A DNA stretch of 37,634 bases from Aliiruegeria lutimaris (GTDB lineage Bacteria > Pseudomonadota > Alphaproteobacteria > Rhodobacterales > Rhodobacteraceae): NCBI RefSeq assembly GCF_900099935.1, contig NZ_FNEK01000051.1:1-37634 (forward strand), written 5' to 3'. Below are positions 5,489-27,652 of this stretch, in pieces. The translations under genes and the position numbers were made by a program. The notes under the pieces are model-generated. The model did not search any database. It saw only the letters and a list, made by a program, of their open reading frames with translations, and had not been told where the DNA came from. The stretch's first letter is position 1; the number at the start of each line of letters is the position of its first letter.

Positions 5489-5618
5489 CCGGAACGCGAT
5501 TTCCTCTTTCGTCAAATATCTCCGCCGGAGGCACGATCCGAAGGATCGTTCAACCGTGCGATGCGACCTTTCCGAAAGGTCATGGATTTGGCAAGCCGTG
5601 CCTCAAGGACGCACCGAG

Positions 5619-5647
5619 GAAAAAAGGCGTGCCAATTGGCACGCCTT
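5619..5647 (-). terminator. Rho-independent terminator of the fadJ operon
   Basis: A perfect palindrome AAGGCGTGCCAATTGGCACGCCTT (given here in two halves: AAGGCGTGCCAA at 5624-5635 and TTGGCACGCCTT) is followed on the minus strand by a T-run (the A-run at 5619-5625). It lies about 30 bases after the fadJ stop codon. On the plus strand it is followed by a C/T-rich tract and could also act in that direction. Confidence 0.88.
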
Positions 5648-5678
5648 CTTCTTCTTCCGTATGGTCACTGCTTGTGGA

Positions 5679-7874
5679 TCAGGCGGCGGCGACTTGCTTC
5701 GCGAAGCGAGCATAAAAACTCTGCCCCTTCGCCCCCATTTCCTTAAGCAATTCCGGCGTATCGAAGCGGGCGCCGTATATTTCTGCCAGCGCGGCGGTCC
5801 GTTCGGCGGCATAAGGCGTGCCAAGCATGTCCAACCAGGAGAAAGGACCGCCGGACCAGGGCGCGAAACCCCATCCGAGGATCGCACCGACATCGCCCTC
5901 GCGGATGTCTTCCAGTACGCCTTCTTCCAGTGCGCGGACAGCCTCCAGAACCTGCACGAAGAGCAGGCGGTGCTGGACCTCGGCCACGCTCGGTTGTTCA
6001 TCGGCCAGCGGGTATTTCTCGGCCAGCACCTTCCAAAGCCCGGTGCGCTTGCCCTTCTCGTCGTAGTCGTAGAAGCCGGCACCGGCCTTGCGACCGAGGC
6101 GCCCGGCCTCAAACATCGAGAACAGGATCTCGTCGCAGCTATCGTCATAGGCATCGCCCATCGCGGCCTTGGTCGCCTTGGCGATCTTCACCCCGAGATC
6201 GATGGAGGTCTCGTCGGTCAGTTGGAGCGGTCCCAGCGGCATACCGACGAGCTTGGCCGCGTGTTCGATCAGCGCGGGCGAGATGCCCTCGGTGACCATG
6301 CGGATGCCCTCGTTGATATAGGGAATGATGCAGCGATTGGCGTAGAAGAAGCGCGCATCGTTGACCACGATCGGCGTCTTGCGGATCTGGCGCACATAAT
6401 CGAGCGACTTGGCGACGGCCCGGTCACCGCTTTCGGCACCCTTGATGATCTCCACCAGCAACATCTTCTCGACTGGCGAGAAGAAATGGATGCCGATGAA
6501 CTGCTCCGGCCGCTTGGAGGCCTTGGCCAGTTCGGTGATCGGCAGGGTCGAGGTATTGGTGGCAAAGATGCAGTCCTCGCCCACGACTTCCTCGACCTTC
6601 TTCGTCACCTCGGCTTTTACGCCGACATCCTCGAAGACGGCCTCGATGATCAGGTCGCACCCCGCGAGCGCGTTGTAGTCATTCGTTGCGGTGATCCGGT
6701 CGAGTAGGGCCTGCTTCTTCTCCGGCGTGGTCTTGCCGCGCTTGATGCCCTTGTCGGCGAAGCTCTCGGTATAGGCCTTGCCCTTGTCTGCGGCCTCCTG
6801 GTTCTGGTCGAGCAGCACTACCTCGATACCGGCCTGGGCCGAGACCAACGCAATGCCCGCGCCCATCATGCCCGCGCCAAGAACGCCGACCTTTTTCACC
6901 TTTTCGTCGGCCACGTCGGGGCGGTTGGCGCCTTTCTCCAGCGCTTCCTTGTTGATGAAGAGCGAGCGGATCATGGCAGAGGAGGACGGGTTCATCAGCA
7001 CATTGACGAACCAGCGGCACTCGATGCGGATGGCGGTGTCGAAATCGACCTGCGCGCCCTCATAGACCGCCGAGAGCAGCGCCTTCGCGGCCGGGTAGAC
7101 GCCTTGCGTCTTGCCATTCACCATCGCGGAGGCGCCAACATAGGTCATGAAACCAGCCGGGTTGTAGGGCGCGCCTCCGGGGATCTTTTCCTTCTTTTCG
7201 TCCCAAGGCTTCACGATGTTCGGGTCGGACAAGACCCATTCACGGGCCTTGTCGAGCAGTTCCTCGGGGGCCACGACCTCGTCCACCACCCCGGCCACCT
7301 TGGCCTTTTTCGGGTCGTTCAACCTGCCTTCGAGCAGCAGCGGCGAGGCGCCCATCGCGCCCAGCTTGCGCGAAAGCCGCGTGGTGCCACCCGCACCGGG
7401 GAAGATGCCGACCATGATCTCCGGCAGGCCGATCTTGGCCTTCGGATTGTCGGCGGCAAAGATGCGGTGGCAAGCGAGCGGAATTTCCAGCCCGATGCCG
7501 AGCGCGGTACCCGGAAGCGCCGCCGCAATCGGCTTGCCGCCCTTGTTGGTCTTGGGATCCATCCCAGCGCGCTCGATCTTGCGCAGGATGGCATGCATGC
7601 CCATGATCCCGTCGAACAGCCCCTTGGCGGGGTTGTCGCCGGCCATTTCCTTCATCTTGGCGATGATGTTGAGATCCATCCCCCCGGCGAAGGAGCCTGC
7701 CTTGCCGCTGGTCAGAACCGCGCCCTTGATCTCGTCATTGGCGAGCACCTCGTCGATGAGTTTGTCGAGGTCCTGGAACCCCTGCATGTTCATGACATTC
7801 ATCGACTTGCCCTGGGTGTCCCAGGTGATGATAGCGACGCCGTCGTCGCCTACTTTCATGCTGAAATCGCTCAT
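5679..7874 (-). CDS. fadJ: Multifunctional enoyl-CoA hydratase / 3-hydroxyacyl-CoA dehydrogenase
   Basis: This 731-residue enzyme carries out two steps of fatty-acid beta-oxidation: hydration of 2-enoyl-CoA and NAD-dependent oxidation of the 3-hydroxyacyl-CoA. The crotonase domain (about 5-200) has the oxyanion-hole segment SFAGGMDL and the catalytic Glu pair at E130 and E152 (GIGLE; IGLPEIMVGIFPGAGG). The NAD-binding Rossmann motif is VGVLGAGMMGAG (about 329-340), the dehydrogenase His lies in IHFFSPVEKM, and the C-terminal helical domain contains GRLGRKAGAGFYDYDEKG. The start at 7874 follows AAGGA at 9-base spacing; the frame stays open further upstream but yields Ser/Arg-rich sequence. It lies 52 bases downstream of the thiolase gene. 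Either fadJ or fadB would be a fair name. Confidence 0.95.
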   Translation of the reverse strand: MSDFSMKVGDDGVAIITWDTQGKSMNVMNMQGFQDLDKLIDEVLANDEIKGAVLTSGKAGSFAGGMDLNIIAKMKEMAGDNPAKGLFDGIMGMHAILRKIERAGMDPKTNKGGKPIAAALPGTALGIGLEIPLACHRIFAADNPKAKIGLPEIMVGIFPGAGGTTRLSRKLGAMGASPLLLEGRLNDPKKAKVAGVVDEVVAPEELLDKAREWVLSDPNIVKPWDEKKEKIPGGAPYNPAGFMTYVGASAMVNGKTQGVYPAAKALLSAVYEGAQVDFDTAIRIECRWFVNVLMNPSSSAMIRSLFINKEALEKGANRPDVADEKVKKVGVLGAGMMGAGIALVSAQAGIEVVLLDQNQEAADKGKAYTESFADKGIKRGKTTPEKKQALLDRITATNDYNALAGCDLIIEAVFEDVGVKAEVTKKVEEVVGEDCIFATNTSTLPITELAKASKRPEQFIGIHFFSPVEKMLLVEIIKGAESGDRAVAKSLDYVRQIRKTPIVVNDARFFYANRCIIPYINEGIRMVTEGISPALIEHAAKLVGMPLGPLQLTDETSIDLGVKIAKATKAAMGDAYDDSCDEILFSMFEAGRLGRKAGAGFYDYDEKGKRTGLWKVLAEKYPLADEQPSVAEVQHRLLFVQVLEAVRALEEGVLEDIREGDVGAILGWGFAPWSGGPFSWLDMLGTPYAAERTAALAEIYGARFDTPELLKEMGAKGQSFYARFAKQVAAA

Positions 7875-7926
7875 TTCGCGTAGTCCTTGAAATCTTTGCC
7901 CCGCAGGGCTGTCCCTGTTGGCGGCG

Positions 7927-9138
7927 TCAGACGCGCTCGATGATCGTGGCCGCGCCCATACCGGAGGCGACGCAGAGCGTGGCAAGGCCGGTCTGCTTGC
8001 CCGTTCGTTCCAGCTCGTCGAGCAGGGTGCCGATGATGATCGCGCCGGTGGCGCCAAGCGGGTGTCCCATGGCGATGGAGCCGCCATTCACGTTGACCAG
8101 CGCCGGATCGACTTCGAAGGCCTGCAGGAAGCGCAGCACAACGGAAGCAAAGGCCTCGTTCACTTCGAACAGGTCGATGTCGCTGATGGACATGCCGCTA
8201 TCGGCGAGGATCTTCTCGGTCACTGGGACCGGGCCGGTAAGCATGATCGTCGGGTCGAGGCCGATCTTGGCCGTGGCCTTGATGCGGGCGCGCGGCGTCA
8301 GCCCATTGGCCTCGCCGAATTCCCTGGAGCCGATAAGCACGGCGGCGGAGCCGTCCACGATGCCGGAGGAGTTGCCGGCGTGGTGGATGTGGTTGATCGC
8401 CTCCAGATGCGGGTATTTCATCAGCGCGACCTTGTCGAAGCCGGGCATCACCTTGCCCATCTGCTCGAAGGCGGGGTTGAGCTTCGCGAGGTCATCGACG
8501 CTGGTGCCGGGGCGCATGTACTCGTCACGATCGAGGATGGTCAGGCCATTCTGATCCAGCACCGGCATGACGGATTTCGCAAAGCGGTTGTCGTCCCAGG
8601 CTTCCTTGGCGCGGCGCTGCGACTCGACGGCCAGCGCATCGGCCTGTTCGCGGCTGAAGCCGTATTCAGTGGCGATGATATCGGCCGAGATGCCCTGAGG
8701 GACGAAATACTGGTTCATGGCGATGGAGGGATCGACGGCAATGGCCGCCCCGTCCGAGCCCATGGCCACGCGGGACATCATCTCGACGCCGCCGGCGATA
8801 TAGGCCGCGCCCGCGCCGCCCTTCACCTGGTTGGCAGCGATGTTCACCGCTTCCATGCCAGAGGCGCAGAACCGGTTGATCGACAGGCCTGGAATACGTT
8901 CGTCGAGATCGGAGGCGAGCACAGCGGTGCGGGCAAGGCAACCGCCCTGCTCCATGACCTGCGTGGCGTTTCCCCAGATCACGTCTTCGGCGAAATGGCC
9001 GTCGAGGCCGTTGCGGTCCTTGATCGCGTTCATCATCTGCGCCGAGAGCGCTGCCGCGGTCACTTCGTGCAGCGAGCCGTCCTTGCGACCCTTGCCGCGC
9101 GGGCTGCGCACGGCATCGTAGATATAGGCTTCGGTCAT
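7927..9138 (-). CDS. fadA: Acetyl-CoA C-acyltransferase (3-ketoacyl-CoA thiolase)
   Basis: The product (403 residues) performs the thiolytic step of beta-oxidation, releasing acetyl-CoA. Catalytic residues are visible: the acyl-accepting Cys91 in NRFCASGMEAV, His359 in GGSIAMGHPLGATGA and the base Cys389 in CVASGMG. It lies directly upstream of fadJ (52-base gap) and downstream of the gst gene (25-base gap), so the three are probably one transcript. With fadJ it would form the trifunctional beta-oxidation complex. A GAGGA ribosome binding site precedes the ATG. Confidence 0.95.
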   Translation of the reverse strand: MTEAYIYDAVRSPRGKGRKDGSLHEVTAAALSAQMMNAIKDRNGLDGHFAEDVIWGNATQVMEQGGCLARTAVLASDLDERIPGLSINRFCASGMEAVNIAANQVKGGAGAAYIAGGVEMMSRVAMGSDGAAIAVDPSIAMNQYFVPQGISADIIATEYGFSREQADALAVESQRRAKEAWDDNRFAKSVMPVLDQNGLTILDRDEYMRPGTSVDDLAKLNPAFEQMGKVMPGFDKVALMKYPHLEAINHIHHAGNSSGIVDGSAAVLIGSREFGEANGLTPRARIKATAKIGLDPTIMLTGPVPVTEKILADSGMSISDIDLFEVNEAFASVVLRFLQAFEVDPALVNVNGGSIAMGHPLGATGAIIIGTLLDELERTGKQTGLATLCVASGMGAATIIERV

Positions 9139-9163
9139 AATATGTCCTCTTTCGGTCCGTTGC

Positions 9164-9799
9164 TCACGCGCGATCAGCGGGCGAGCCGGGCATCAGGTCG
9201 TAGGGGTGTTTCCAGCCGGCCAGGTCGGCGATGCGGTCCAGCCAGGCGTCGATATTCGGAAAGGCCGTCCGGTCGAAACCGAAGGGCTCGGGGTAGAACA
9301 GGTATCCGCAATTGGCGATGTCGGCGATTGTCGGGCCCGAACCCACCAGCCAGTCGCGCCCATCAAGGCAGCTGTTCAGCACCTTCATTGCGCCGTTGTG
9401 CCGGGCAACGAGATAGGCGTTCACATCCGTATTGCGCTTGTCTTCGGGCAAGAAGTTCATGTTGAAGCGCACCGGCCCGGCGACGCCGGAGTTCTTGTGG
9501 TTGTCAAACAGGATCCAGCGCAGGATCTCGCGCCGTTCTGCATCCGACGTCCAGCCGAGGCGACCGGATTTCTCCACCACGTAGTCCTGGATCACGCCGG
9601 ACTGAGTGAGGGTGAGATCCCCGTCCACCATTACCGGCACCTCGCCCATGGCGTTGAGCTTGCGATATTCCGGGGTGCGCGTCGCGCCGTGGAAGAAATC
9701 CACATAGACCGGCTCCCAATCGAGCCCGACCAGTTCCAGCGAGAGCGCCGCCTTGTAGGCGTTGCCGGATTCTCCAAAGCAATAGAGTTTGATAGTCAT
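9164..9799 (-). CDS. Glutathione S-transferase family protein
   Basis: The 211-residue protein has a thioredoxin-fold N-terminus (MTIKLYCFGESGNAYKAALS, with NAMGEVPVMVDGDLTLTQSG supplying the cis-Pro and the glutathione gamma-Glu contact), then an all-helical C-terminal domain with the N-capping WLVGSGPTIADIANC motif. The substrate is unknown. The position at the head of the fadA-fadJ genes suggests a role linked to fatty-acid or CoA-ester metabolism, perhaps dealing with reactive products, but this is inference. The ATG at 9799 has a strong GGAGGA ribosome binding site at 5-base spacing. Confidence 0.88.
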   Translation of the reverse strand: MTIKLYCFGESGNAYKAALSLELVGLDWEPVYVDFFHGATRTPEYRKLNAMGEVPVMVDGDLTLTQSGVIQDYVVEKSGRLGWTSDAERREILRWILFDNHKNSGVAGPVRFNMNFLPEDKRNTDVNAYLVARHNGAMKVLNSCLDGRDWLVGSGPTIADIANCGYLFYPEPFGFDRTAFPNIDAWLDRIADLAGWKHPYDLMPGSPADRA

Positions 9800-9829
9800 G
9801 CGTCTCCTCCAAGCCGCCACGTCGGATCT

Positions 9830-9850
9830 GGGTATTTGGACCAACAAGAA
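9830..9850 (-). repeat. Inverted-repeat partner A (TTCTTGTTGGT..AAATACCC)
   Basis: On the minus strand this reads TTCTTGTTGGT, two bases, AAATACCC. The same 19 bases occur on the plus strand at 10004-10024 with only the two spacer bases changed, so the pair faces inward around about 150 bases of gene-free DNA between gst and the RHH gene. It lies within the gst 5' region, between the probable promoter area and the start codon. Confidence 0.6.
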
Positions 9851-10003
9851 GAACAGGAAACGCTTTATTTACCCTGTTCGGCCTAAATCTGTCGCGCGGT
9901 ACAGGCTGGGGAGCCGATGACCGCCCAACGAGAAGCCCTCCCTCGCAGGTCCCCGTTGCGGCCCGGACCCGTGAACCGGCCGGGGGCAGGGTGACTTCCT
10001 GAT

Positions 10004-10024
10004 TTCTTGTTGGTGAAAATACCC
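10004..10024 (+). repeat. Inverted-repeat partner B (TTCTTGTTGGT..AAATACCC)
   Basis: This matches the minus-strand element at 9830-9850 at 19 of 21 positions. It is followed by TCGCCGAAGGCG, a small hairpin. The AAATA-C-C-CGCCG-AGGC core is also seen in weaker form near 5512-5536, so it may be part of a dispersed intergenic family. The 9851-10003 interval shows no gene; it contains GC-rich sequence with no clear signal. Confidence 0.55.
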
Positions 10025-10062
10025 TCGCCGAAGGCGTCCCTCCCTTTCCGATCTCGGTTCGG

Positions 10063-10275
10063 TTACCTTTTCCTGTCCTCCAACTCGGCCTTGAACAGCC
10101 GGAGCCGGTGGGGCAGCGCTTCGTCATCCGTCACACTGCCGAAATTCTCGAAAAGGAAGCACAAGGCCTCGTCCTGCGTGATCCCCGCCTCGTCGCTGAA
10201 TTTCCGGAGCCGCCGATAGGCATCTTCGCTCAGGGCAATATTCAGCCGTCGGGTGAACCGCAGTCTCTTGGTCAT
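10063..10275 (-). CDS. Small ribbon-helix-helix-like protein
   Basis: The 70-residue product reads MTKRLRFTRRLNIALSEDAY at its start. A basic beta-strand-like stretch is followed by two helices (SEDAYRRLRKFSDEAG, then TQDEALCFLFENFG) and a charged C-terminus. This strand-helix-helix layout is that of CopG/Arc-type DNA-binding proteins, although I do not recognise the family. It starts 15 bases after the acyl-CoA dehydrogenase stop codon on the same strand, so it is probably co-transcribed and may be a regulatory or accessory protein of the fatty-acid genes. No toxin-like partner is adjacent. Confidence 0.7.
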   Translation of the reverse strand: MTKRLRFTRRLNIALSEDAYRRLRKFSDEAGITQDEALCFLFENFGSVTDDEALPHRLRLFKAELEDRKR

Positions 10276-10290
10276 GTGCTTCCCCTACTT

Positions 10291-12069
10291 TCAGAACGCC
10301 TCGGCGGGCAGGGTCATGACCGGGTCCGCGCCGCTCTGGATGCGGGCGAGGTGCATGGATGTCGCCGGAAGCTGTCGGGCCATGTAATAGCGGCCGGTTG
10401 CGAGTTTCGTCTCGTAGAAGCTCGCATCGCCCGTGCCGGAAGCCAAGGCCTCGCTGGCCGCTTTCGCCATCTGCGCCCACATCAGGCCAAGGCAGGCATG
10501 CCCGAACAGGTGCATGAAGTCATATGAGCCGGAAAGCGCAGCGTTGGGATTCTTCATCCCGTTCTGCATGAAGAACATGGCCGAGGCCTGAAGATCCTTG
10601 CTGGCCTGCTTGAGCGGGTCGAGGAAGTCCTTTTTCAGCGCCTCGTCAGCTTCGTTCTCCTTTATGAAGTTCTTCACCAGATCGAAGAAGGCCATGACAT
10701 GCTTGCCGCCATCGGCAGCGAGCTTGCGGCCCACGAGGTCCAGCGCCTGCACGCCATTAGCCCCCTCGTAGATCTGGGTGATGCGGGCATCGCGGACGAA
10801 TTGGGACATGCCCCATTCCTCGATATAGCCATGACCACCATAGACCTGCTGCGCCTGGATGGTCATCTCCAGGCCCTTGTCGGTCAGGAAGCCCTTGAGA
10901 ACCGGGGTCAGCAGCGAGATCAGCCCTTCGGCCGCGGCATCGCCGGAGCGGTGCGAACGGTCGAGCATATTGGCACCCCAGAGCATGAAGGCCCGCGCGC
11001 CCTCGATGAAGCTCTTCTGGTCCAGCAGGTTGCGGCGGATATCGGGGTGCACGATCAGCGGATCGGCCGGCCCGTCGGGGTTCTGCGCGCCGGTCACGGC
11101 GCGGCCTTGAAGGCGGTCCTTGGCATAGATCACGGCGTTCTGATAGGCGGCCTCGGCCTGCGCCATGCCCTGCATCGCCACGCCGAGACGCGCTTCGTTC
11201 ATCATCGTGAACATCGCCCGCATGCCCTTGTGCTCGGTCCCGAGCAGGTAGCCCTCGGCCTCGTCAAAGTTCATCACGCAGGTCGAGTTGCCGTGAATGC
11301 CCATCTTCTCTTCGAGCTTGCCGACAGACACACCGTTGGCGGCGCCGACATTGCCGTCCTCGTCGACGAGATACTTGGGCACGATAAAGAGCGAGACGCC
11401 CTTGATGCCTTCGGGGCCGCCCGGGATCCTGGCCAGAACCAGATGGATCACGTTCGCGGACATGTCATGGTCACCGGCGGAGATGAAGATCTTCTGACCG
11501 GTCACCTTGTAGGAGCCGTTCTCCTGCGGCACGGCCTTGGTCCGCATCAGGCCCAGATCCGTGCCGCAATGCGGTTCGGTCAGGTTCATTGTGCCGGTCC
11601 ATTCGCAGGAGACCATCTTGGGCAGCCACTTGGCCTTTTGCGCGTCCGTGCCGTGGGCGTGGATCGCGGAATAGGCGCCATGGGTCAGGCCCTGGTACAT
11701 GGTGAAGGCCTGGTTGGCCGCCGAGAACAGCTCTCCCACCGCGGTTCCGAGCAGAATGGGCATACCCTGCCCGCCATAGTCCGGATCGCAGTCCAGTGCG
11801 GTCCAGCCGCCTTCCTTCATCTGCTCGAAAGCCGCCTTGAAGCCGGTGGGGGTCCGCACCACACCGTTCTCCAGGACGCAGCCTTCCTTGTCGCCCACCT
11901 CGTTGAGCGGGGCAATCACGTTGGAGGCAATCTTGCCGGCTTCTTCGAGCACCGCCGCGGTAATATCGGCTTCAAGCTCTTCGTAGCCCGGAATGTCCTG
12001 CTGGCTGGCCTTGAGCAGCGTGTGCAAAACAAACTGAATGTCGTTCACAGGAGCCGTGTAGCTCGGCAT
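10291..12069 (-). CDS. Acyl-CoA dehydrogenase, DmdC-type with extended C-terminal domain
   Basis: At 592 residues this is longer than ordinary acyl-CoA dehydrogenases (about 380). It has the layout of the large subgroup that includes 3-methylmercaptopropionyl-CoA dehydrogenase (DmdC): an N-terminal extension starting [16 protein letters not shown], a GGQGMP segment, the FAD-binding [12 protein letters not shown] and [10 protein letters not shown] region, the [20 protein letters not shown] / [18 protein letters not shown] motif with the presumed catalytic Glu, and an alpha-helical C-terminal domain. It would catalyse the first, FAD-dependent step of acyl-CoA oxidation. The substrate (fatty acyl, aryl-acyl or sulfur-containing acyl chain) cannot be told from sequence alone. 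It follows merR at 12101 by 31 bases with a GGGAGG ribosome binding site. Confidence 0.92.
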
Positions 12070-12100
12070 GTATGTCCTCCCTGGGGGTTCGGTCGTCGAA

Positions 12101-12502
12101 TTACTCCGCCGCCGACGAGGCATGCAGCTCCGCGAGGCGCTTTTCGCCCCATTCCAACTGCTGCTTGAGTTCCTCGATCGCTTCGTCGAGTTCCTCGCGC
12201 TGATTCACCATGTCGGACAGACGCTGGGTTGCCAGTTCATAGGTCTTTGCAAGCTGTGTCGCCTGCTGGTCGCCTAGATCATAGAGGTCGAGAAGCTGTC
12301 GGATTTCCTCCAGCGAGAAGCCGAAGCGCTTGCCGCGCAGGATCAGCTTCAGCCGGGCACGGTCGCGGCGGGTGTAGAGCCGCTTGGTGCCCTGGCGGAT
12401 CGGAAACAACAGTTCCTTGGCCTCGTAGAAACGCAACGTGCGCGGGGTCGCCTCGTAGGCGTCGCACATCTGGCGAATTGTCATCAGGTTATCGTCGCTC
12501 AT
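12101..12502 (-). CDS. MerR-family transcriptional regulator (first of two)
   Basis: The 133-residue protein has an N-terminal winged HTH ([20 protein letters not shown] ... [30 protein letters not shown]) and a C-terminal coiled coil (about 80-125) for dimerisation. No cysteine cluster for metal binding is visible. It is close in type to the alphaproteobacterial LiuR-like regulators of acyl-CoA catabolism. It is the first gene before the acyl-CoA dehydrogenase, and a 16-bp imperfect palindrome overlaps its probable promoter (12579-12594), so autoregulation and control of the downstream gene are likely. The start ATG is at 12502 with GGAAAAGG upstream. Confidence 0.9.
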
Positions 12503-12578
12503 ATCAGTACCTTTTCCGCCTTCCGCGGATTTCACGCGACCCCGGTCCTAGCGTCTCGAGGTCTTCATATATCATCGC

Positions 12579-12594
12579 TTGACGTGAACGTAAG
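12579..12594. promoter_or_regulatory. Probable MerR operator and promoter upstream of merR/acyl-CoA dehydrogenase
   Basis: The palindrome-like site TTGACGTGAACGTAAG resembles LiuR-type boxes (TTnACGT..ACGTnAA). On the minus strand a possible -35 (CTTACG) lies in the site, and after 17 bases TATATG could serve as -10, about 75 bases before the ATG at 12502. An operator placed over the -35/spacer is the usual MerR arrangement. A second site of the same form lies at 13122-13137. The remaining DNA between the two regulators (12503-12729) shows no gene. Confidence 0.55.
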
Positions 12595-12729
12595 TTAAAC
12601 GCTGCGTCATTGCGCCAGGATCGCCACTTGGCGCGGTTCACCTCGGCGCGGCCAATAAGAATTGGCGTCAAAGCGCTTTGGCAGTTGTGTGGATTTGTCT
12701 TGGTCGAGCCGGCCATTTCGATTTCCACG

Positions 12730-13113
12730 TTACGTCAGAGTTGCGGCGGTATCGTCGCGAACCTTCTGGAGGTCGAGAATCGCTTCCTCCAGTTCCACCT
12801 TCTGGCGGTTGAGCTCGGCGATCTGACGGTCGGCGAGTTCAATCCAGGCATCGAGCTGCGGGCGCGCGCCCTGTTCCTCGTAGATAAGCAGCCATTGCCG
12901 GATCTCCTCGAGGCTGAATCCCCAGCGGCGGCCACGCAGGATCAGGGTCATCCGCGCGACTTCGCGCTGACGATACCACCTTGAACGGCCATCCTTTTCG
13001 GGCTGAAGCAGCTCGATATATTCGTAGTAGCGAAGCGTGCGCGGCGTCACGTCGAATTTCGCGCACATCTCCTTGAAGCTCAGTCGGGTGAGTGACACCG
13101 CCCAACACTCCAT
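12730..13113 (-). CDS. MerR-family transcriptional regulator (second of two)
   Basis: A 127-residue relative of the neighbouring regulator: winged HTH (SFKEMCAKFDVTPRTLRYYE ... [27 protein letters not shown]) and a C-terminal coiled coil (about 85-122). The [16 protein letters not shown] block is nearly shared with the other MerR ([16 protein letters not shown]), so the pair probably arose by duplication. Start choice is uncertain. The ATG at 13113 has no ribosome binding site, while a GTG at 13098 has GGAG 9 bases upstream. If TATGGA at 13109-13114 is the -10 element, only the GTG would be on the transcript. It faces the plus-strand thioesterase operon and could control both directions. Confidence 0.88.
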   Translation of the reverse strand: MECWAVSLTRLSFKEMCAKFDVTPRTLRYYEYIELLQPEKDGRSRWYRQREVARMTLILRGRRWGFSLEEIRQWLLIYEEQGARPQLDAWIELADRQIAELNRQKVELEEAILDLQKVRDDTAATLT

Positions 13114-19942: not shown

Positions 19943-19956
19943 TTGATCCGGATCAA
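19943..19956. promoter_or_regulatory. FNR/FnrL-type binding site upstream of the Nfn-Kor operon
   Basis: TTGATCCGGATCAA is a perfect match to the FNR consensus TTGAT-N4-ATCAA. Its centre is about 39 bases before the expected start of transcription from a TGCATAGC extended -10-like element at 19974-19981, the geometry of a class II FNR-activated promoter. The first gene starts at 20070, leaving a leader of about 80 bases. The flanking 19874-19942 DNA is AT-rich compared with the surroundings. Confidence 0.82.
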
Positions 19957-20069
19957 GGCATAGAACCCCCGCCTGCATAGCGTCAGGCACGTCGAGTCCG
20001 GGTCTGGGCCGCACGCCGAAAGGCGCCCGACCCCGGCCTGGACCGCGCGAGCCAAGGAGGAGCACGCGC

Positions 20070-21017
20070 ATGTCCAGTAGCGACACGCATAAAAGCGCCG
20101 CGGCAGGTCTGCCGGGGCAAGAAGAAGCCACGCCAGGTGCGGAGACCGCCGCAGCGACGGGATTTCCCATCGTTGCGCGAACCGATTTTTCCAGGACCAC
20201 ATTCCTGCTGGAAGTCGAGCACCCACAGATGGCCAGGGCGGCCCGACCGGGGCAGTTCGTCATCGTCATGCTCGACGATCACGGCGAACGAATACCGCTG
20301 ACAATCGCCGATTTCGACCGTGAGAAGGGCACCATAACGCTGGTGATCCAGGCGGTCGGCAAGTCCAGCCGCGAGATGCAGTCCCGCTGCCAGGTGGGCG
20401 GCGCGCTGTTCGGCCTTGTCGGTCCGATGGGCATTCCGAGCGAAGTCTCGGACGCGAAGAAGGTGATCTGCGTTGGAGGCGGCCTCGGTGTCGCGCCGAT
20501 TTTCCCACAGGCCCGCGCCTTCAAGGAAGCGGGTGCGCATGTGATTGGCGTTGTGGGGTTCCGCAGCGCCAATTTGGTCTTTTGGGAAGAGAAATTCCGC
20601 TCTGTCTGCGACGAGTTCATCATCTGCACCGATGACGGCTCCGCCGGGATCAAGGGCTTGGTGACCCAGGGTATCGAGCAGGCGATTGCCGAGCATGGCG
20701 ACATTGACGAGGTGGTGGCCATCGGCCCGCCGATCATGATGCGCGCCTGTGCGGAAGCCACCCGCCCGCACAAGATCAAGACCATGGTGAGCCTCAACCC
20801 GATCATGGTGGATGGCACCGGAATGTGCGGCGGCTGCCGTGTCCGCGTTGGCGGAAAGGTGAAATTCGCCTGCGTGGATGGTCCGGATTTCGATGGTCAC
20901 GAAGTGGATTTCGACGACCTGATGGCGCGGCTGCAACGCTACCGGCCGCAGGAAGCCGAGGCGATGGAACAGTGGCTTGAGAACTGTCGGCGGTTGCAGG
21001 TCGAGGAGGTACGCTGA
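20070..21017 (+). CDS. NfnA-like FAD/[2Fe-2S] oxidoreductase subunit (dihydroorotate dehydrogenase electron-transfer-like)
   Basis: The 315-residue protein belongs to the ferredoxin-NADP reductase-like flavoproteins that form the small subunit of NfnAB/SudAB complexes. It has a FAD-binding segment (RIPLTIADFD, about 74-83), the NAD(P)-binding motif CVGGGLGVAPIFP (about 134-146) and a C-terminal iron-sulfur region with spacing D248-x4-C253-x2-C256-x11-C268. An Asp in the first ligand position is known for the [2Fe-2S] centre of Nfn small subunits. The N-terminus has about 30 extra Ala/Gly/Glu-rich residues. A GGAGGAG ribosome binding site supports the start. The stop overlaps the next start (TGATG). 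Confidence 0.9.
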   Translation: MSSSDTHKSAAAGLPGQEEATPGAETAAATGFPIVARTDFSRTTFLLEVEHPQMARAARPGQFVIVMLDDHGERIPLTIADFDREKGTITLVIQAVGKSSREMQSRCQVGGALFGLVGPMGIPSEVSDAKKVICVGGGLGVAPIFPQARAFKEAGAHVIGVVGFRSANLVFWEEKFRSVCDEFIICTDDGSAGIKGLVTQGIEQAIAEHGDIDEVVAIGPPIMMRACAEATRPHKIKTMVSLNPIMVDGTGMCGGCRVRVGGKVKFACVDGPDFDGHEVDFDDLMARLQRYRPQEAEAMEQWLENCRRLQVEEVR

Positions 21018-22525
21018 TGGCACGCAAGACAATCCGCTCCATTCCGCAGGAGCGCGCATTCATGCCTGTGCTCGATGCGCAGGAACGGGCGACGAATTTC
21101 GAAGAGGTCTCGCTCGGTTTCGACGAGGCAAATGCGCTGGTGGAATGCGAGCGCTGCCTGATCTGCCCCGAGCCGGCCTGCATTCCGGGCTGCCCGGTGG
21201 AGATCGACATCCCCGGCTTCATCTCCAAGATGCTGAAGAAGGATTATCACGGGGCCTGGGACACACTGACCGACTCGACCTTCCTGCCGGCCGTGTGCGG
21301 GCGGGTCTGTCCGCAGGAGGACCAGTGCGAGGGCGTTTGTGCGGTTGCCGTAAGCGGCGGTCTGGAGCCGGTCGCCATCGGCCGTCTGGAGCGCTGGCTC
21401 GGCGACATGGCAATCGAGAAGGGCTGGAAGAACGAAAGCCATATCGAACCCAACGAATACCGGATCGGCATTGTCGGCTCGGGCCCGGCGAGCATGGCCT
21501 GCGCGGCCGACCTCGCCAAGGCGGGCTGCAAGGTGACGGTATTCGAGGCGCTGCATGCGCCCGGAGGTGTGCTGCGCTACGGTATTCCAGAGTTCCGCCT
21601 GCCGAATTCGGTGGTGGACGCGGAGATTGGCAACCTTGAGAAACTTGGTGTCGAGATCCGCTGCAACACGCTGGTCGGGCGACTCTTTACCGTCGAGCAG
21701 ATGCTGGACGAGATGGGCTATGACGCTGTCTTCATCGGCACGGGCGCCGGGTATCCGTCCTTCATGGATATCCCGGGCGAGAACTTCAACGGGGTACTTT
21801 CCGCCAACGAGTTGCTGACGCGCTGCAACCTGATGCAGGCCGGCAAGTTCCCGAATTTCGACACGCCGCTGGAGATCGGCCGCAAAGTTGCCGTCATCGG
21901 CGCGGGGAACACGGCGATGGACGCCATGCGCGTTTCGAAACGTCTTGGCGCTGAAGAGGTCACCTGCGTCTACCGCCGGACCGAGGCAGAGTGCCCCGCA
22001 CGCCTGGAGGAACTTCACCACGCAATGGAAGAAGGGATCAACTTCCAGTGGCTGACGGCCCCGGTCGAGATCCTGGGCGACAGCAACAAAAACGTGCGCG
22101 CCATCCGGTGCCAGCGTATGGAACTGGGTGAGCCTGACGATTCCGGTCGCCGGCGTCCGGTTCCGATCCCGGGCAGCGAGTTCGAGTTCGAGGCCGACAC
22201 GGTGGTCTATGCCATCGGCACCGCGCCGAACCCGATCCTCGGCCAGACCTCGGATATCAAGCTCAACAAGTGGGGCTATATCGACACGGACGAAACCCTC
22301 GCCACCTCGTTGGCCGGTGTCTATGCCGGCGGCGATATCGTGACAGGCGCAGCGACCGTGATCCTGGCCATGGGTGCGGGCCGGCGCGCGGCGGCGAGCA
22401 TCCGCGACTACCTTGGCATCCGCGATTCCATGGTGGTGTACGAACCTGAGAACATGGGCTTCGAGAACACGCTTTTCGGCATTGATGCGGCCGAGAAGAA
22501 CTTCGTCCATGTGCGGCAGATCTGA
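21017..22525 (+). CDS. NfnB/GltD-like NADPH-dependent flavoprotein with two iron-sulfur clusters
   Basis: The 502-residue protein has the layout of glutamate synthase small chains and of the large subunit of NfnAB. N-terminal cysteines (C44, C47, C50, C55, C59 and C94, C98, C104, C108; CERCLICPEPACIPGCP and CGRVCPQEDQCEGVC) can hold two [4Fe-4S] clusters. FAD-binding motif: RIGIVGSGPASMACAADLAK (about 148). NADPH-binding motif: KVAVIGAGNTAMDAMR (about 288). C-terminal FAD motif: GVYAGGDIVTGAATVILAMG. There is no GltB partner in the window, and the gene is joined to an NfnA-like gene, so an Nfn-type NADH/NADPH/ferredoxin complex is the better reading than glutamate synthase. Confidence 0.9.
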   Translation: MARKTIRSIPQERAFMPVLDAQERATNFEEVSLGFDEANALVECERCLICPEPACIPGCPVEIDIPGFISKMLKKDYHGAWDTLTDSTFLPAVCGRVCPQEDQCEGVCAVAVSGGLEPVAIGRLERWLGDMAIEKGWKNESHIEPNEYRIGIVGSGPASMACAADLAKAGCKVTVFEALHAPGGVLRYGIPEFRLPNSVVDAEIGNLEKLGVEIRCNTLVGRLFTVEQMLDEMGYDAVFIGTGAGYPSFMDIPGENFNGVLSANELLTRCNLMQAGKFPNFDTPLEIGRKVAVIGAGNTAMDAMRVSKRLGAEEVTCVYRRTEAECPARLEELHHAMEEGINFQWLTAPVEILGDSNKNVRAIRCQRMELGEPDDSGRRRPVPIPGSEFEFEADTVVYAIGTAPNPILGQTSDIKLNKWGYIDTDETLATSLAGVYAGGDIVTGAATVILAMGAGRRAAASIRDYLGIRDSMVVYEPENMGFENTLFGIDAAEKNFVHVRQI

Positions 22526-22541
22526 AAGGCAGAGCAGGGCA

Positions 22542-24473
22542 ATGACAACGGAAGGCACACAGGTTTTTGCCGAGATCGCCGATCCAATGGACCGGGTTCC
22601 ACCGAAAGCCGGAAGACCGGCTGAGGTGATCGAGGAACATATCGTCGAGATCGTTTCGGACTCCGGTGAAGGCGCGCAGCGCTGCGGGCAGTCGCTGGCG
22701 TCGATCGCGGCGCGGATGGGCATGGGGATCTGGACGGTGGAGATCATCCCCGCCGAGATCCAGCCGCCGCACCGCTCCATCGCGGGTGCGTCGGGCAACC
22801 GGGTCCGCATGGCGGCCAAACCCGTCACCAATATCGGCGACGAAGCCGATCTGGTGGTGGCGTTCAACGAGCAGGTTCTGCTGAGCCGCCTGCGGGCAGG
22901 CGAAGTGAAGCCGGGCGCGACGATCCTGATGGAGAACGCCTGGGAGAATGATCTCAACCCCTCCATCGCGACGGCCTATGTGAAGGTCTGCGCCGAGGTG
23001 CGGGAAGCGGGCTACAATCTCATCGAAGTTCCGATGGAGAAGGAGTGTCAGAAATACGTGCCCGATCCGCGCAAGGGCAAGAACATGTTCGTGCTCGGCA
23101 TGCTCTGCGCGATCTATTCGCTCGATGCGGAAAAGGCGCGGGCACAGGTGCGCTATATCTTCGCCAAGAAGGACCAGCGCATCATCAATGCCAATATCGA
23201 GCTTCTCGATGCGGGCCGCGCATGGGCCGAGGCCAATCTCGACATCGCGTACACAATCCCCGCGCCGCCCGTGGCCGAAGAACAGGTAGTGATGAACGGC
23301 AACGCCGCGCTGGCGCTCGGCACCGTGGCTTCCGGCATGGAAGTCTGCGCGATGTATCCCATCACGCCGGCAACCTCGGCCAGCCATTACCTGTCGAGCA
23401 TCTTCGAAAAGGTCGGCTGCGTCGTACACCAGGCGGAAGACGAGATCTCGGCCTGTGCCTTTGCGATCGGCGCCTCCTATGCCGGCAAATGCGCGGTGAC
23501 GATCACCTCCGGGCCGGGCCTCTCGCTCAAGCAGGAGGCCATCGGGCTGGCCGTGATGTCCGAAATCCCGCTCGTCGTGATCGACGTGCAGCGCGGAGGG
23601 CCCTCGACCGGCCTGCCGACCAAGGTCGAGCAGGGGGACCTGATGTCCGCCATGTTCGGTACCCATGGCGACGCGCCAAAGGTGATCATGGCGGTTTCCT
23701 CCATCGAGGATTGCTTCCACTCTGTCATCACCGCCCGCAAGATCGCCGAGACCTTCAACATGGTCGTGGTGATCCTGTCGGACGCGGCGCTCGCAACCGC
23801 GCAGCAGCCCTACAAGCGGCCGAAATTCCGCGCCGACTGGCTCGCCCCGCCGGTGAACCAGAGCGCGGTGCCCGAGCATGCCCATCCTTATGACTGGGAC
23901 GAGCGCACCGGCATTGCCACGCGCTTCATCCCCGGCCAGCCGAACGGGATGCACTGCCTCACCGGACTTGCGCATGACCGCGACAGCCATGTCGCCTATG
24001 ACCCGCAGATCAACGAGGAAGGGTTGCTCAACCGCTCCCGCAAGCTCGCGGCCTTCCAGAAGACGCTGCGGCTGGAGCCGGTTCATGGAGGAGACGAGGG
24101 CGAATTGCTTCTTCTCGGCTGGGGTTCGACCCGCGGCGCGATCCAGGAAGCCGTCGACCGGCTGCGCGCCGAGGGGCACAAGGTCTCCTCGTTGCACCTG
24201 AAGTTCCTGCAGCCCATGGCCTCGGGCATCGACAAGGTGATGAAGCGGTTCGACCGCGTCATGACCATCGAGAACAACTGGAACGACCCGGTTTCGGACC
24301 CGCTGATCGACGAGAACAACCGTCGCTATTCGCATCTGGCGATGCTGCTCCGGTCGCGCTGGCTGGTCGATGTGGATTGCTGGGGCAACGCGCGCGGACA
24401 ACCGCTCAAACCCGGCGCAATCCATGACGCCGCCCTTGCCAAACTGGTTCAGGCACGAGGAGAAGAGCAATGA
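22542..24473 (+). CDS. korA: 2-oxoacid:ferredoxin oxidoreductase, fused gamma-alpha subunit (KorA-type)
   Basis: The 643-residue product joins a gamma domain (about 30-230) to an alpha domain (about 250-643), as in actinobacterial and denitrifier KorA. The alpha domain shows CAMYPITPATSASHYL (about 269-284), CAVTITSGPGLSLKQEAIGL and QRGGPSTGLPTKVEQGDL. Together with the beta subunit it oxidises a 2-oxoacid with CoA to the acyl-CoA and CO2, reducing ferredoxin. The C-terminal transketolase-like domain includes WGSTRGAIQEAVDRLRAEGH. 2-Oxoglutarate is the likely substrate from family membership, but residues do not prove it. The ATG at 22542 follows GAGCAGGG; the end overlaps korB by four bases. 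Confidence 0.92.
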   Translation: MTTEGTQVFAEIADPMDRVPPKAGRPAEVIEEHIVEIVSDSGEGAQRCGQSLASIAARMGMGIWTVEIIPAEIQPPHRSIAGASGNRVRMAAKPVTNIGDEADLVVAFNEQVLLSRLRAGEVKPGATILMENAWENDLNPSIATAYVKVCAEVREAGYNLIEVPMEKECQKYVPDPRKGKNMFVLGMLCAIYSLDAEKARAQVRYIFAKKDQRIINANIELLDAGRAWAEANLDIAYTIPAPPVAEEQVVMNGNAALALGTVASGMEVCAMYPITPATSASHYLSSIFEKVGCVVHQAEDEISACAFAIGASYAGKCAVTITSGPGLSLKQEAIGLAVMSEIPLVVIDVQRGGPSTGLPTKVEQGDLMSAMFGTHGDAPKVIMAVSSIEDCFHSVITARKIAETFNMVVVILSDAALATAQQPYKRPKFRADWLAPPVNQSAVPEHAHPYDWDERTGIATRFIPGQPNGMHCLTGLAHDRDSHVAYDPQINEEGLLNRSRKLAAFQKTLRLEPVHGGDEGELLLLGWGSTRGAIQEAVDRLRAEGHKVSSLHLKFLQPMASGIDKVMKRFDRVMTIENNWNDPVSDPLIDENNRRYSHLAMLLRSRWLVDVDCWGNARGQPLKPGAIHDAALAKLVQARGEEQ

Positions 24474-25456
24474 CTGCCACGATGAGCCAGTGCCTGGCCC
24501 AGATGGTACAGACCGACTACGCCATGAAGGACTACCAGAGCGAGATTGCCCCGCGCTGGTGCACGGGCTGCGGCGATACCGCGATCCTGACGGCGATGCA
24601 GCGGCTCTGCCGCGACGAGCAGCTTCCCCCGGAAAAGACGGTCTGCGTCTCCGGGATCGGCTGCGCCTCGCGACTGCCGCATTACATGAACGCCTACGGT
24701 TTCCACGGCATCCATGGCCGCGCATTGCCGATTGCCGAGGGGATCAAGATCCGCCGGCCGGACCTGAATGTCTTCGTCACCACCGGCGATGGCGACAACT
24801 GCTCCATTGGTGCGGCGCACTGGCTGCACGCGGTGCGCTACAACATGAACATGGTCGTCATGCTGCATGACAACCAGGTTTACGGGCTGACCAAGAAACA
24901 AGCCTCGCCGACCTCGCCCAAGGGGCTTTCGACCAACACGACGCCTGGCGGGGCGATGCTGAACCCGCTCAACCCGCTGACGGTGACGCTGGGTATCTCC
25001 AACGTCTCCTTCGTGGCCCAATGCGTCGACTGGATCCCGGACCTGCTCTACGAGACCCTGCAAATGGCCTATCGGCACAAGGGGTTCTCCTTTATCCGCA
25101 TCCTGCAACGGTGCCCGAACTTCATGGACCACCATTTCGACAACTGGATGCAGGACCCGGCGCGCACGCGGCTTCTGACCCATTCCAACGGGTTGCGCCT
25201 CAAGCCGGAAATCTCGCGCGTCTACAAGAACCAGGAAACGCACGACCCCCGCGACATGCCGCGGGCGCTGGCGCTGGCCGCGCTCAGTGACGAGGTGCCG
25301 GTGGGCGTGCTGTACCGAAACCCGGATGTGCCCTGCTATGACGAGCTGCGCGCAGGCGAGCGGCCGAGCACGCCGGCGCTGGTCGAAACCGTGCTCAACG
25401 AGGAATTCGACAAGGTCGGCATCTGGCCTGCCGAATCCGAGCAGGCCGAAAGGTAA
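24470..25456 (+). CDS. korB: 2-oxoacid:ferredoxin oxidoreductase, beta subunit (KorB-type)
   Basis: The 328-residue subunit binds thiamine diphosphate and one [4Fe-4S] cluster. Cluster ligands are probably C31 and C34 (RWCTGCGD), C65 (SGIGCASR) and C215 (LQRCPNF). The TPP motif is GDGDNCSIGAAHWLHAVRYN (about 106-125) ending at DNQVYGLTKKQASPTSPKG (134-152). The start overlaps korA by ATGA with AGGAG 7 bases upstream. Six bases separate it from the following gene. Confidence 0.93.
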   Translation: MTATMSQCLAQMVQTDYAMKDYQSEIAPRWCTGCGDTAILTAMQRLCRDEQLPPEKTVCVSGIGCASRLPHYMNAYGFHGIHGRALPIAEGIKIRRPDLNVFVTTGDGDNCSIGAAHWLHAVRYNMNMVVMLHDNQVYGLTKKQASPTSPKGLSTNTTPGGAMLNPLNPLTVTLGISNVSFVAQCVDWIPDLLYETLQMAYRHKGFSFIRILQRCPNFMDHHFDNWMQDPARTRLLTHSNGLRLKPEISRVYKNQETHDPRDMPRALALAALSDEVPVGVLYRNPDVPCYDELRAGERPSTPALVETVLNEEFDKVGIWPAESEQAER

Positions 25457-25462
25457 CGAGCC

Positions 25463-27652
25463 ATGAAACACGGAAAAATCGTTGCGAACCCTGCCGCACA
25501 TGCGCCCGTCACCAAGACGCTGCGCCCGGCACTTTTCGCCCGCTATGCGGATCTGGCGAATCTGCGCCATGACTACCCGCTGGTGCTGGTCGATTTCGGC
25601 GAGGGGCGGCCGCTGGTGCGCCCGCTCAGCCGCATCATCGACGGAACGCTGCGGCTGGTGGCGCCGAAGGACCTCACAGGCGAGGCCATGCGCCAGCAGT
25701 TGTTGCAGCTGGAGGCGGATATTCGCCGCCGGGTGCTCGCCGGCGAGGAAGCCCGCCTGTCGGATTTCTGGCGCGATTGCACGGCCGAGATGATCCGCGC
25801 GAAGGGAGAAGGCCCGTTCGGCGGGCTGGACAACAATTTCGAGATCGCCCGCAAGCGCCTGCCCTATGACGGGCTGGTGATCGGCTGCAATGGCGAGACG
25901 CCGGCCAAGGTGCTGCGCCACGCCTGGAGCGCCAAGCAGGCTGCCAAGGCGCGGCGCTTCCGCCGGGTGGTGGACAGCCTGATCCTGCGTCTGTCGGATA
26001 TCCTGAAATCCGACCACATGAAGTCGGACGAAGCGCATGGTGCCGAGGCGCTGGAAGCCGCCATGGGCGCCACCGCCGATGGTTCGATCGATTTCGGTGC
26101 GCTCTCGGCCGTGCTGGAACGCGCGCGGCCGGAGGACCGGCTGCCGGTCGACCGGGTTGCCCGAATCCGCGACGCGTTGCAGGTGCTCAAGGGTCAGCCC
26201 TTCTACGGGCCGGGGCGGGCCTCAGACACCACGCCCTGCAAGCGCGACCCCTATAACTACACGTTCGATACCTGTTCGGCGGCGCTTGATGCCTATCGGG
26301 ACCGGTTGCCGGATGTTCTCGCCTTCACCAAGGCGCTGACGGTGGCGGAGCTGGAGGTCGAGAACAAGTACCGTCCGGAGTTGCATGACCAGATCCTTGC
26401 GCGGTTCGACGAAAGCGACATGTCGGCCGAGCAGATCAACATGCTGCCTTCGGCGCTGGTCTGTCTGCGGGACGGCGAGACGGTTTCGGCCGAGACCGCC
26501 CGCAGCTTCGAGGCGCTGGCCTGCGGGCTGCCGATCACGGTGCTTGTTCAGGTCGACGACCTGCTTGGGCCGACCTCGCCCGAGCCGCCGGTCAACAGCT
26601 TCGGTGCAGGCACCGCGCGGCTTGCGGCAATGGCGATGGGGCTGAACAACGCCTTCGTCTGCCAGACCTCAAGCGCGCATATCAACCGCATGATCGACGG
26701 GCTGGAACGCGGGATGCGCTACGAGGGGCCGGCGCTCTTCAGCATCTATTCCGGCGCCACTCCGAACGTTCCCGATGTCGAGCCCTATATCCTCTCGGCG
26801 GCGGCAACCGAGGCGCGGGCCTTCCCCAGCTTCACCTACGATCCCTCCGCGGGATCGGACTGGGCATCGCGTTTCAGCCTCGCGGGCAACCCGGAGGCGG
26901 AGAAGGACTGGCCGGTTCACGAGGTGGTCTACGAGAATGCGAAAGGGGAGCGGCAGACGGAGACGCTCGCATTCACCTTTGCCGATTTCGCGATCTGCGA
27001 CTCGCGCTACACCCGCTTCTGCCATCTCTCGGATGCCTGCGAAGACGCGTTGGACCGGGTCTCGGCGGCGGAATGGCTCACCTGCGTGCCGGACACGGAC
27101 CCGACGCGGAGCCCCTGCGTTCGGGTGATCGACCCGGAGAACCAGCTCTTCAGCGTGGTGGTCGACACCAAGATCGCCGAAGCTGCGAGCCGCTGCATCG
27201 ATGCATGGCGGCGGCTGCAGGAACTGGCCGGGATCAACAACTCGCATTCGCGCAGGGCGCTGGCCGAAGAACGCCTGAAGCGCGAAGCGACTTCCACGCA
27301 GCAGGCGGCGGCACCGGCGGCGAAGGCTGTCGAGGCGGATGCGAAACCGGTCGAAAAACCCGCGGTTCCGGAACCGGCAGCGCCGGTCGAAAGCGCGACC
27401 TCCGATGGCGCGGCCTGGATCGAGACGCCGCGCTGCACGACCTGCAATGAATGCGTTCAGACGAATGACAAGCTCTTCGCCTATAACGAGAACATGCAGG
27501 CCTATGTGGCGGACCCCGATGGCGGGACTTATCGCCAACTCGTGGAAGCGGCCGAGAGCTGCCAGGTTTCGATTATCCATCCGGGCCTGCCGCGGAACCC
27601 GGACGAGCCGGACTTGCCGGAGTTGATCGAGCGGGCGGCCGCGTTCAACTGA
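25463..27652 (+). CDS. Large PFOR-like protein with C-terminal single-cluster ferredoxin domain
   Basis: This 729-residue protein is the last gene of the Nfn-Kor operon. Residues 1-250 are helical and not recognised. Residues about 270-600 (including LQTSSAHINRM-like CQTSSAHINRMIDGLERGMR, then EGPALFSIYSGATPNVPDVE, and FAICDSRYTRFCHL) recall the C-terminal TPP-binding part of long pyruvate:ferredoxin oxidoreductases, but a clear GDG..N TPP motif is missing, so it is unlikely to be a second complete catalytic unit. An Ala/Pro/Glu linker (about 610-650) leads to a ferredoxin domain with C658, C661, C664 and C700 (RCTTCNECVQ ... ESCQVSIIHPGLP), fit for one [4Fe-4S] cluster. It could be the dedicated electron carrier or a scaffold joining KorAB with NfnAB. 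The fusion and its place in the operon are seen; the role is inferred. Confidence 0.8.
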   Translation: MKHGKIVANPAAHAPVTKTLRPALFARYADLANLRHDYPLVLVDFGEGRPLVRPLSRIIDGTLRLVAPKDLTGEAMRQQLLQLEADIRRRVLAGEEARLSDFWRDCTAEMIRAKGEGPFGGLDNNFEIARKRLPYDGLVIGCNGETPAKVLRHAWSAKQAAKARRFRRVVDSLILRLSDILKSDHMKSDEAHGAEALEAAMGATADGSIDFGALSAVLERARPEDRLPVDRVARIRDALQVLKGQPFYGPGRASDTTPCKRDPYNYTFDTCSAALDAYRDRLPDVLAFTKALTVAELEVENKYRPELHDQILARFDESDMSAEQINMLPSALVCLRDGETVSAETARSFEALACGLPITVLVQVDDLLGPTSPEPPVNSFGAGTARLAAMAMGLNNAFVCQTSSAHINRMIDGLERGMRYEGPALFSIYSGATPNVPDVEPYILSAAATEARAFPSFTYDPSAGSDWASRFSLAGNPEAEKDWPVHEVVYENAKGERQTETLAFTFADFAICDSRYTRFCHLSDACEDALDRVSAAEWLTCVPDTDPTRSPCVRVIDPENQLFSVVVDTKIAEAASRCIDAWRRLQELAGINNSHSRRALAEERLKREATSTQQAAAPAAKAVEADAKPVEKPAVPEPAAPVESATSDGAAWIETPRCTTCNECVQTNDKLFAYNENMQAYVADPDGGTYRQLVEAAESCQVSIIHPGLPRNPDEPDLPELIERAAAFN

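Follow-up and report, generated by a model that had tools for sequence, protein, structure and literature searches.

A putative Nfn-Kor gene set with a pseudo-PFOR/ferredoxin protein behind an FNR-type box in Aliiruegeria lutimaris

The facultative anaerobe Azoarcus evansii reportedly has a 2-oxoglutarate:NADP+ (nicotinamide adenine dinucleotide phosphate) oxidoreductase, KorABC, in which KorAB is coupled to an NADP+-reducing flavoprotein. This enzyme is the nearest known idea to a five-gene set, nfnA-nfnB-korA-korB-P5, found in a 37,634-nucleotide stretch of Aliiruegeria lutimaris DNA (assembly GCF_900099935.1, contig NZ_FNEK01000051.1; the whole stretch is called the window here). The likeness lies in the joining of KorAB to an NADP+-reducing flavoprotein. 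The window differs in encoding both Nfn subunits together with a further protein, P5, in its apparent FNR class II promoter, and in that no HGD-D protein was found in seven genomes bearing P5. The component families of the set are already known and P5 is its new element.

Each part of the set also has described counterparts. NfnA and NfnB resemble NfnI (4ylf, 5jca) in the presence of both subunits, in their cofactor motifs and in being separate genes of pattern A, but they are encoded here with a 2-oxoacid oxidoreductase and a candidate tethered ferredoxin, and NfnB carries a conserved tail. KorA and KorB share a fused gamma-alpha subunit plus a beta subunit, thiamine pyrophosphate (TPP) and one [4Fe-4S] cluster with the two-subunit KorAB or 2-oxoglutarate:ferredoxin oxidoreductases (6n2n and 6n2o, both of which we take to be from Magnetococcus marinus, and Sulfolobus 5b46-5b48), but form a separate clade with Nfn and P5 as fixed partners. 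The C-terminal half of some extended pyruvate:ferredoxin oxidoreductases (PFORs; loci L036, L037, L031 and L060) is homologous to the P5 core and ferredoxin tail, whereas P5 has no counterpart to their N-terminal half and has lost the TPP motif and all but one of the four cluster cysteines. AadN of Rhodopseudomonas palustris is likewise an Nfn homologue and stands in for KorAB in an anaerobic electron path of an alphaproteobacterium, but it is fused, occurs in strains without korAB and is tied to benzoyl-CoA reductase (PMC9973337). The openly licensed literature compared includes PMC9973337, PMC6405883, PMC5020499, PMC6085437, PMC2773412, PMC4518329 and PMC9855186. No account in it was found to describe KorAB and NfnAB as fixed partners of a pseudo-PFOR ferredoxin subunit, which is a weak negative.

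Our reading, held with slightly more confidence than doubt, is that the set would encode a five-subunit 2-oxoacid:NADP(H) oxidoreductase in which P5 is a tethered ferredoxin carrying electrons from KorB to NfnB. The features of the locus are as follows.

19943-19956, + strand: FNR-type box TTGATCCGGATCAA, a perfect palindrome
19978-19983, + strand: -10-like hexamer TAGCGT, 21 bases behind the FNR box, class II geometry
20070-21017, + strand: NfnA (NfnS), with flavin adenine dinucleotide (FAD)/NAD domains and a [2Fe-2S] domain; match to 5jca_S (NfnI), E 2.8e-93
21017-22525, + strand: NfnB (NfnL), with two [4Fe-4S] clusters, FAD and an NADP(H) site; match to 4ylf_B, E 1.2e-160
22415-22522, + strand: C-terminal tail of NfnB, 36 amino acids beyond the matched end, FG[IM]xxxExNF...R
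22542-24473, + strand: KorA, fused gamma-alpha subunit of a 2-oxoacid:ferredoxin oxidoreductase; match to 6n2n_A, E 3.7e-84
24470-25456, + strand: KorB, TPP- and [4Fe-4S]-binding beta subunit
25463-27652, + strand: P5, pseudo-PFOR/ferredoxin subunit, 729 amino acids
25514-25867, + strand: N-terminal conserved domain of P5 (residues 18-135), without a relative found
25868-27232, + strand: P5 core (residues 136-590), PFOR beta (TPP) domain lacking the TPP motif and retaining one of four cluster cysteines
27248-27415, + strand: P5 linker, 56 amino acids, rich in Ala, Pro and Glu
27416-27649, + strand: C-terminal single-cluster ferredoxin domain of P5, CxxCxxC...C; Fer4_13, 27 bits (cut-off 24.5)

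A sequence-only reading of the window had described five overlapping or nearly touching genes forming one unit of Nfn, KorAB and a PFOR/ferredoxin-related protein, and both points stood up: the successive gaps are -1, +16, -4 and +6 bases, and the same gene order is kept in 11 relatives (L045-L048, L050-L053, L093, L095 and L096). In L049 and L094 the set is cut by contig ends but is consistent with this order, and only the end of P5 is present in L054 and L055. L048/L042 and L051/L043 were treated as the same contigs. Relatives bearing P5 include Aliiruegeria sabulilitoris, whose P5 and KorA are 97% and 98.6% identical to those of the window, Tropicimonas sp. and Cohaesibacter celericrescens. 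P5 is rare, being present in 3 of 394 genomes of the family and 5 of 385 of the class. Among 398 genomes of the phylum it is found at full length only in the window's own genome; 49 match some part of it and, the window's genome aside, two of these do so over about 590 residues inside PFORs of 1642-1643 amino acids and the others over less. At least 11 P5 loci, all alphaproteobacterial by title, came from a scan of 84,980 species. This number is a lower bound because the two short patterns used miss divergent P5; those of L094-L096 escaped the scan and came from genome searches. The KorA search of the same 385 class genomes gave five sequences at 64-100% identity and then a gap down to 38% or less, and these are the same five genomes that have P5, with neither protein found alone. 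None of the other KorA sequences matched in the 398 phylum genomes (E up to 1e-80) exceeds 37% identity to that of the window.

The box upstream of nfnA is the only window match at up to one mismatch, and because 0.60 such matches are expected in shuffles it is weak evidence when taken from the window alone. The 5.81 Mb genome has six perfect boxes, against none for the reversed control pattern, and encodes an FnrL equivalog (454.7 bits, cut-off 300). One perfect box stands at the head of the FnrL equivalog gene, 36 bases before hemN, and another lies 371 bases before the ccoG open reading frame (ORF), which fits an FNR motif in use. Upstream regions of nfnA (200 bases each, some with hand-set gene starts) were compared for 12 loci. 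The box is perfect in six of these (the window, L045, L046, L050, L051 and L052), has one mismatch in three (L047, L048 and L095) and two mismatches in L053 and L093; the L053 site is weak by itself, being equalled by 17% of random stretches of that locus, and the L093 site is equalled by 2.7% of its own. All 11 boxes in ten loci (L051 has two) are followed at 21-22 bases by TANNNT (N, any base), and in L093 it follows at 23 bases. Chance would place this hexamer at 21-22 bases in 1.4% of sites, a figure to be read with the spacing having been picked after inspection of the data and with some loci being kin (the window and L045; L050-L052). The spacing holds whether the box is about 107-122, about 62 or, for the second L051 box, 162 bases from the start codon, and it recurs in one of ten cases when the five other perfect boxes of the genome are read in both directions. 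These observations support class II FNR geometry at a putative binding site, and the five-gene set is apparently switched on when oxygen runs low. The perfect palindrome at class II spacing and the link between gene order and FNR boxes across genomes, which the sequence-only reading had respectively claimed and proposed as a search, were recovered, with a box in 11 of the 12 regions and a -10-like element 21-23 bases behind it. Separately, locus L033 of the window's genome has a perfect FNR box at 5140 (C125:19139), 62 bases before an ORF of 128 amino acids that is without an NCBIfam match and that heads genes resembling, by eye, those of ATP synthase F0.

P5 has no match in NCBIfam, and Pfam recognises only the C-terminal Fer4_13 domain. 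From residue 136 to its end at 729, P5 matches the C-terminal half of the 1642-1643-amino acid PFORs of two other genomes at 27.5% and 25.8% identity (blastp against PFOR, 27.5% over 640 columns, 6e-69), and hhalign of the P5 core with seven PFOR sequences gave 100% probability (E 1.1e-48). The L057 PFOR row was outside both this profile comparison and the joint motif alignment. By these alignments the P5 core is a descendant of the PFOR beta (TPP) domain. In the joint alignment the GDGxxxDIG motif is present in 7/7 PFORs and 0/13 P5 rows, although RDG is kept in ten P5 rows. All four cysteines of the proximal [4Fe-4S] cluster occur in 7/7 PFORs, and P5 keeps only the second (C142, 13/13 rows); a cysteine near the third position in some rows, including that of the window, is not conserved. 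Lacking the TPP motif, all but one of the four cluster cysteines and the whole N-terminal half, P5 cannot be a PFOR. Where the sequence-only reading had called the fifth protein a PFOR/ferredoxin, the homology was upheld, only the C-terminal ferredoxin motif is intact, and a working PFOR was rejected, with the TPP motif and three cysteines lost in every one of the 13 rows. A chance or decayed ORF was also rejected, as the open frame and gene order are kept in relatives. About 550-amino acid matches to P5 occur elsewhere in the phylum, and the six that were read (L056-L059, L061 and L062) proved to be beta chains of PFOR in which GDG and CxGCGE are present.

Behind the core, the linker is 50-86 amino acids long with an Ala, Pro and Glu fraction of 0.41-0.75 in the 12 rows measured, its length being taken without L094 (cut by the contig end) and L095 (no boundary found). 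The ferredoxin domain that follows has its four cysteines (CxxCxxC...C) in 13/13 rows and resembles Desulfovibrio ferredoxin I. Residues 18-135 have no relative in Pfam, Protein Data Bank (PDB) sequences or PFOR, and no internal duplication was found in P5 (hhalign probability 0.1%).

Extended PFORs occur in settings of their own. In the window's genome, L031 (C89:66000-82000; 5063-12813, - strand) encodes a PFOR of 1664 amino acids with a C-terminal single-cluster extension, followed by a 919-amino acid fused NfnB-NfnA protein with 44% and 40% identity to the window NfnB and NfnA. The same pair is found in another genome of the phylum (L060), as a 1679-amino acid PFOR and a 980-amino acid fused NfnB-NfnA that is 63% identical to its L031 counterpart. 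In L036 (4237-9165) and L037 (5494-10425) the 1642-1643-amino acid PFORs lie directly behind an rnfB-like gene; the L037 PFOR precedes rnfC, with rnfA further on, and rnfD was tested in L036, placing the PFOR inside an rnf gene set. PFORs with a single-cluster extension beside a fused Nfn or among rnf genes suggest that arms of this type work with a partner of their own. On this view P5 would be one of these arms, which lost its own active site and was then recruited by KorAB. As this KorAB is without a ferredoxin domain in the Pfam scan and Nfn needs a ferredoxin partner, the simplest reading would make P5 the private ferredoxin of the complex.

The KorA and KorB subunits appear equipped for catalysis. 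KorA exceeds the cut-off of the NCBIfam family OAFO_sf and KorB matches PorB_KorB below its cut-off (244.6 bits against 261.9). The TPP motif GDGD and the cluster cysteines of KorB are present in 14/14 rows, and KorA of the window has the YPITP motif and the equivalent of Arg344. The C-terminal extension of KorB is not a special feature, as beta chains of known structure extend almost as far beyond the aligned region. In the KorA tree the 14 cluster sequences are fully separated from 26 ordinary ones (25 class loci plus one) with 100/100 support, on a very long branch that calls for a long-branch warning. For both subunits the closest solved relative is 6n2n, presumably the 2-oxoglutarate enzyme of the reductive tricarboxylic acid (TCA) cycle of M. 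marinus. Of the pocket positions described for StOFOR1 of Sulfolobus (PMC5020499), T349a is Thr in the window, D468a is Leu, K49b is Arg and L123b is Leu; S41a could not be mapped. The same four residues occur in 6n2n, and Leu at D468a is also found in the 2-oxoglutarate-specific KorAB of Hydrogenobacter (PMC5020499). By these four positions 2-oxoglutarate is the most likely candidate substrate, but this KorA forms a clade of its own.

NfnA and NfnB exceed the NCBIfam cut-offs for a sulfide/dihydroorotate dehydrogenase-like FAD/NAD-binding protein and gltA, respectively. NfnA is closer to NfnI than to 5vj7, which we take to be NfnII: it matches Pyrococcus furiosus NfnI at 316 bits, 4ylf_A at 256 bits and 5vj7_B at 172 bits. 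The DGTGMCGGC...C motif of NfnA is present in 12/12 rows and the cluster cysteines of NfnB in all 13 rows that span the region. The FAD/NAD and [2Fe-2S] ligands of NfnA and the two [4Fe-4S] clusters, FAD and NADP(H) domain of NfnB are present. NfnB is about 30 amino acids longer than the solved NfnL; its alignment with 4ylf_B stops at residue 466 of the query and 459 of 468 of the chain, and the C-terminal tail beyond is found in 14/14 rows.

In the predicted scheme, FnrL would sense low oxygen and the five-subunit oxidoreductase would be made. KorAB would decarboxylate a 2-oxoacid, most likely 2-oxoglutarate, oxidatively with coenzyme A (CoA), and its single [4Fe-4S] cluster in KorB would pass low-potential electrons to the ferredoxin domain of P5. 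With the dead PFOR-type domain as anchor, this domain would swing on its flexible Ala/Pro-rich linker and deliver the electrons to NfnB, where NADP+ would be reduced. If NfnAB confurcates like NfnI, the net reaction would be 2-oxoglutarate + CoA + NADH + 2 NADP+ -> succinyl-CoA + CO2 + NAD+ + 2 NADPH (the underlying Nfn reaction is that of PMC6405883), and energy otherwise lost between the 2-oxoacid and NADP+ would drive transhydrogenation. A bolder form of the proposal, which we hold only tentatively, is that the dead PFOR scaffold with its swinging ferredoxin arm hard-wires KorAB to Nfn, so that confurcation would let the oxidation of one 2-oxoglutarate power NADH-to-NADPH transfer or, in the opposite direction, bifurcation would let NADPH power CO2 fixation. 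Such a machine would be a bifurcating, flavin-based complex in which a 2-oxoacid takes the low-potential place of free ferredoxin. We infer the single physical complex, the swinging arm, the substrate, the direction and confurcation. Counted in favour of the five-subunit reading were the P5 core, conserved despite its lost catalytic motifs, the extra NfnB tail, the exact co-occurrence of the KorA clade with P5, the fixed gene order, the box-to-hexamer spacing, and the intact Kor and Nfn cluster motifs, with NfnA nearer to NfnI.

Several points weigh against this scheme. The evidence for a five-subunit machine is sequence-based. The AlphaFold model of P5 is modest (pLDDT 62.1, pTM 0.48), and the fold search gave credible matches for its ferredoxin domain only, none with E < 0.001. 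A linker alone is no proof of a swinging arm. NfnB separates NfnI from 5vj7 poorly (539 and 482 bits against 468), and electron bifurcation is not readable from sequence (PMC6405883, PMC9973337). L096, a full locus, has no FNR box in the 200 bases upstream of nfnA, its best match having four mismatches. K49bR in StOFOR1 favoured pyruvate (PMC5020499), and the substrate of this KorA is not secured because none of the others found shares more than 38% identity with it.

These last two points, together with the deep KorA clade and a propionate--CoA ligase-like gene in the window that scores below the cut-off of that family, would suit a different NADP-linked enzyme in which KorAB acts on another 2-oxoacid such as pyruvate, 2-oxobutyrate or a branched-chain acid. 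We regard this as doubtful, given the best solved match, the four pocket positions shared with 6n2n and the scores of 66 bits for PorA-type (pyruvate) families against 513 bits for the OAFO family. The same machine might instead run in reverse, with NADPH driving reductive carboxylation of succinyl-CoA to 2-oxoglutarate and NAD+ as high-potential acceptor; this electron-bifurcating CO2 fixation would provide glutamate or balance redox when oxygen is low. The closest solved relative, 6n2n, is presumably a reductive TCA enzyme, and 2-oxoglutarate dehydrogenase E1 exceeds its family cut-off in 7/7 P5-bearing genomes tested, so that a second oxidative enzyme is not strictly needed. Both the Nfn reaction (PMC6085437) and 2-oxoglutarate:ferredoxin oxidoreductase (PMC9855186) are reversible. 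Reverse running nevertheless seems unlikely, as the identity of the window KorA to others in the phylum (33-37%) does not exceed its identity to those within the class. The E1 counts also led us to reject replacement of 2-oxoglutarate dehydrogenase by the Nfn-Kor unit, and the bypass of that enzyme suggested by the sequence-only reading is not supported in the form given; with E1 kept in all seven genomes the unit is an additional enzyme and a conditional alternative at most.

Three separate enzymes under one promoter, with no stable complex, are another arrangement: NfnAB (PMC6405883) and two-subunit KorAB (PMC5020499) are complete enzymes elsewhere and use free ferredoxin, so that KorAB could work with soluble ferredoxins, Nfn as an independent transhydrogenase and P5 as a large soluble ferredoxin. 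This is improbable in our judgement when set against the exact co-occurrence of the KorA clade and P5, the gene order kept in distant genera, the conserved NfnB tail and the retention of a dead PFOR domain, needless for a mere ferredoxin. It is still harder to believe that the set supplies low-potential electrons, from a 2-oxoacid or from NADPH by bifurcation, to a ferredoxin-dependent reductase such as benzoyl-CoA reductase, as in Thauera, or nitrogenase. KorAB in Thauera and the Nfn homologue AadN in Rhodopseudomonas do form donor paths to benzoyl-CoA reductase (PMC9973337). The class I benzoyl-CoA reductase B/C family HGD-D, however, was found in 0/7 P5-bearing genomes (one of them 87% complete; other classes of the reductase were not searched) and NifH exceeded its cut-off in only one of the seven, results that argue against an outside low-potential acceptor. 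The parallel that the sequence-only reading had drawn with anaerobic aromatic degraders is likewise not mirrored in these genomes. Matches to NosZ were full length in 3/7 genomes, all below the model cut-off, and were not used.

The ORFs neighbouring the set vary between most genera, as judged by eye; the operon therefore resembles a cassette, and little should be read into its aerobic-looking surroundings. In a Phaeovulum-like group, genes resembling a YjjI-family glycine radical enzyme and its YjjW activase lie directly behind P5 (about 12300-14700 in L050-L052 and 437-2807 in L055; family assignment tested in L051). A second 2-oxoacid oxidoreductase set adjoins the operon in L095 (10714-14501) and L054 (1019-5396), where a perfect FNR-type box lies at 10714 and 1019, respectively; it has a PorA-type alpha subunit (tested in L095) and an NAD(P)-binding protein with a PorD-like end (tested in L054).

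If the five-subunit reading holds, A. lutimaris and its P5-bearing relatives would use the energy of a TCA-cycle decarboxylation to make NADPH directly when oxygen is low, while the normal dehydrogenase is also kept, and an inactive enzyme domain would have found a new role in carrying an electron shuttle on a tether.

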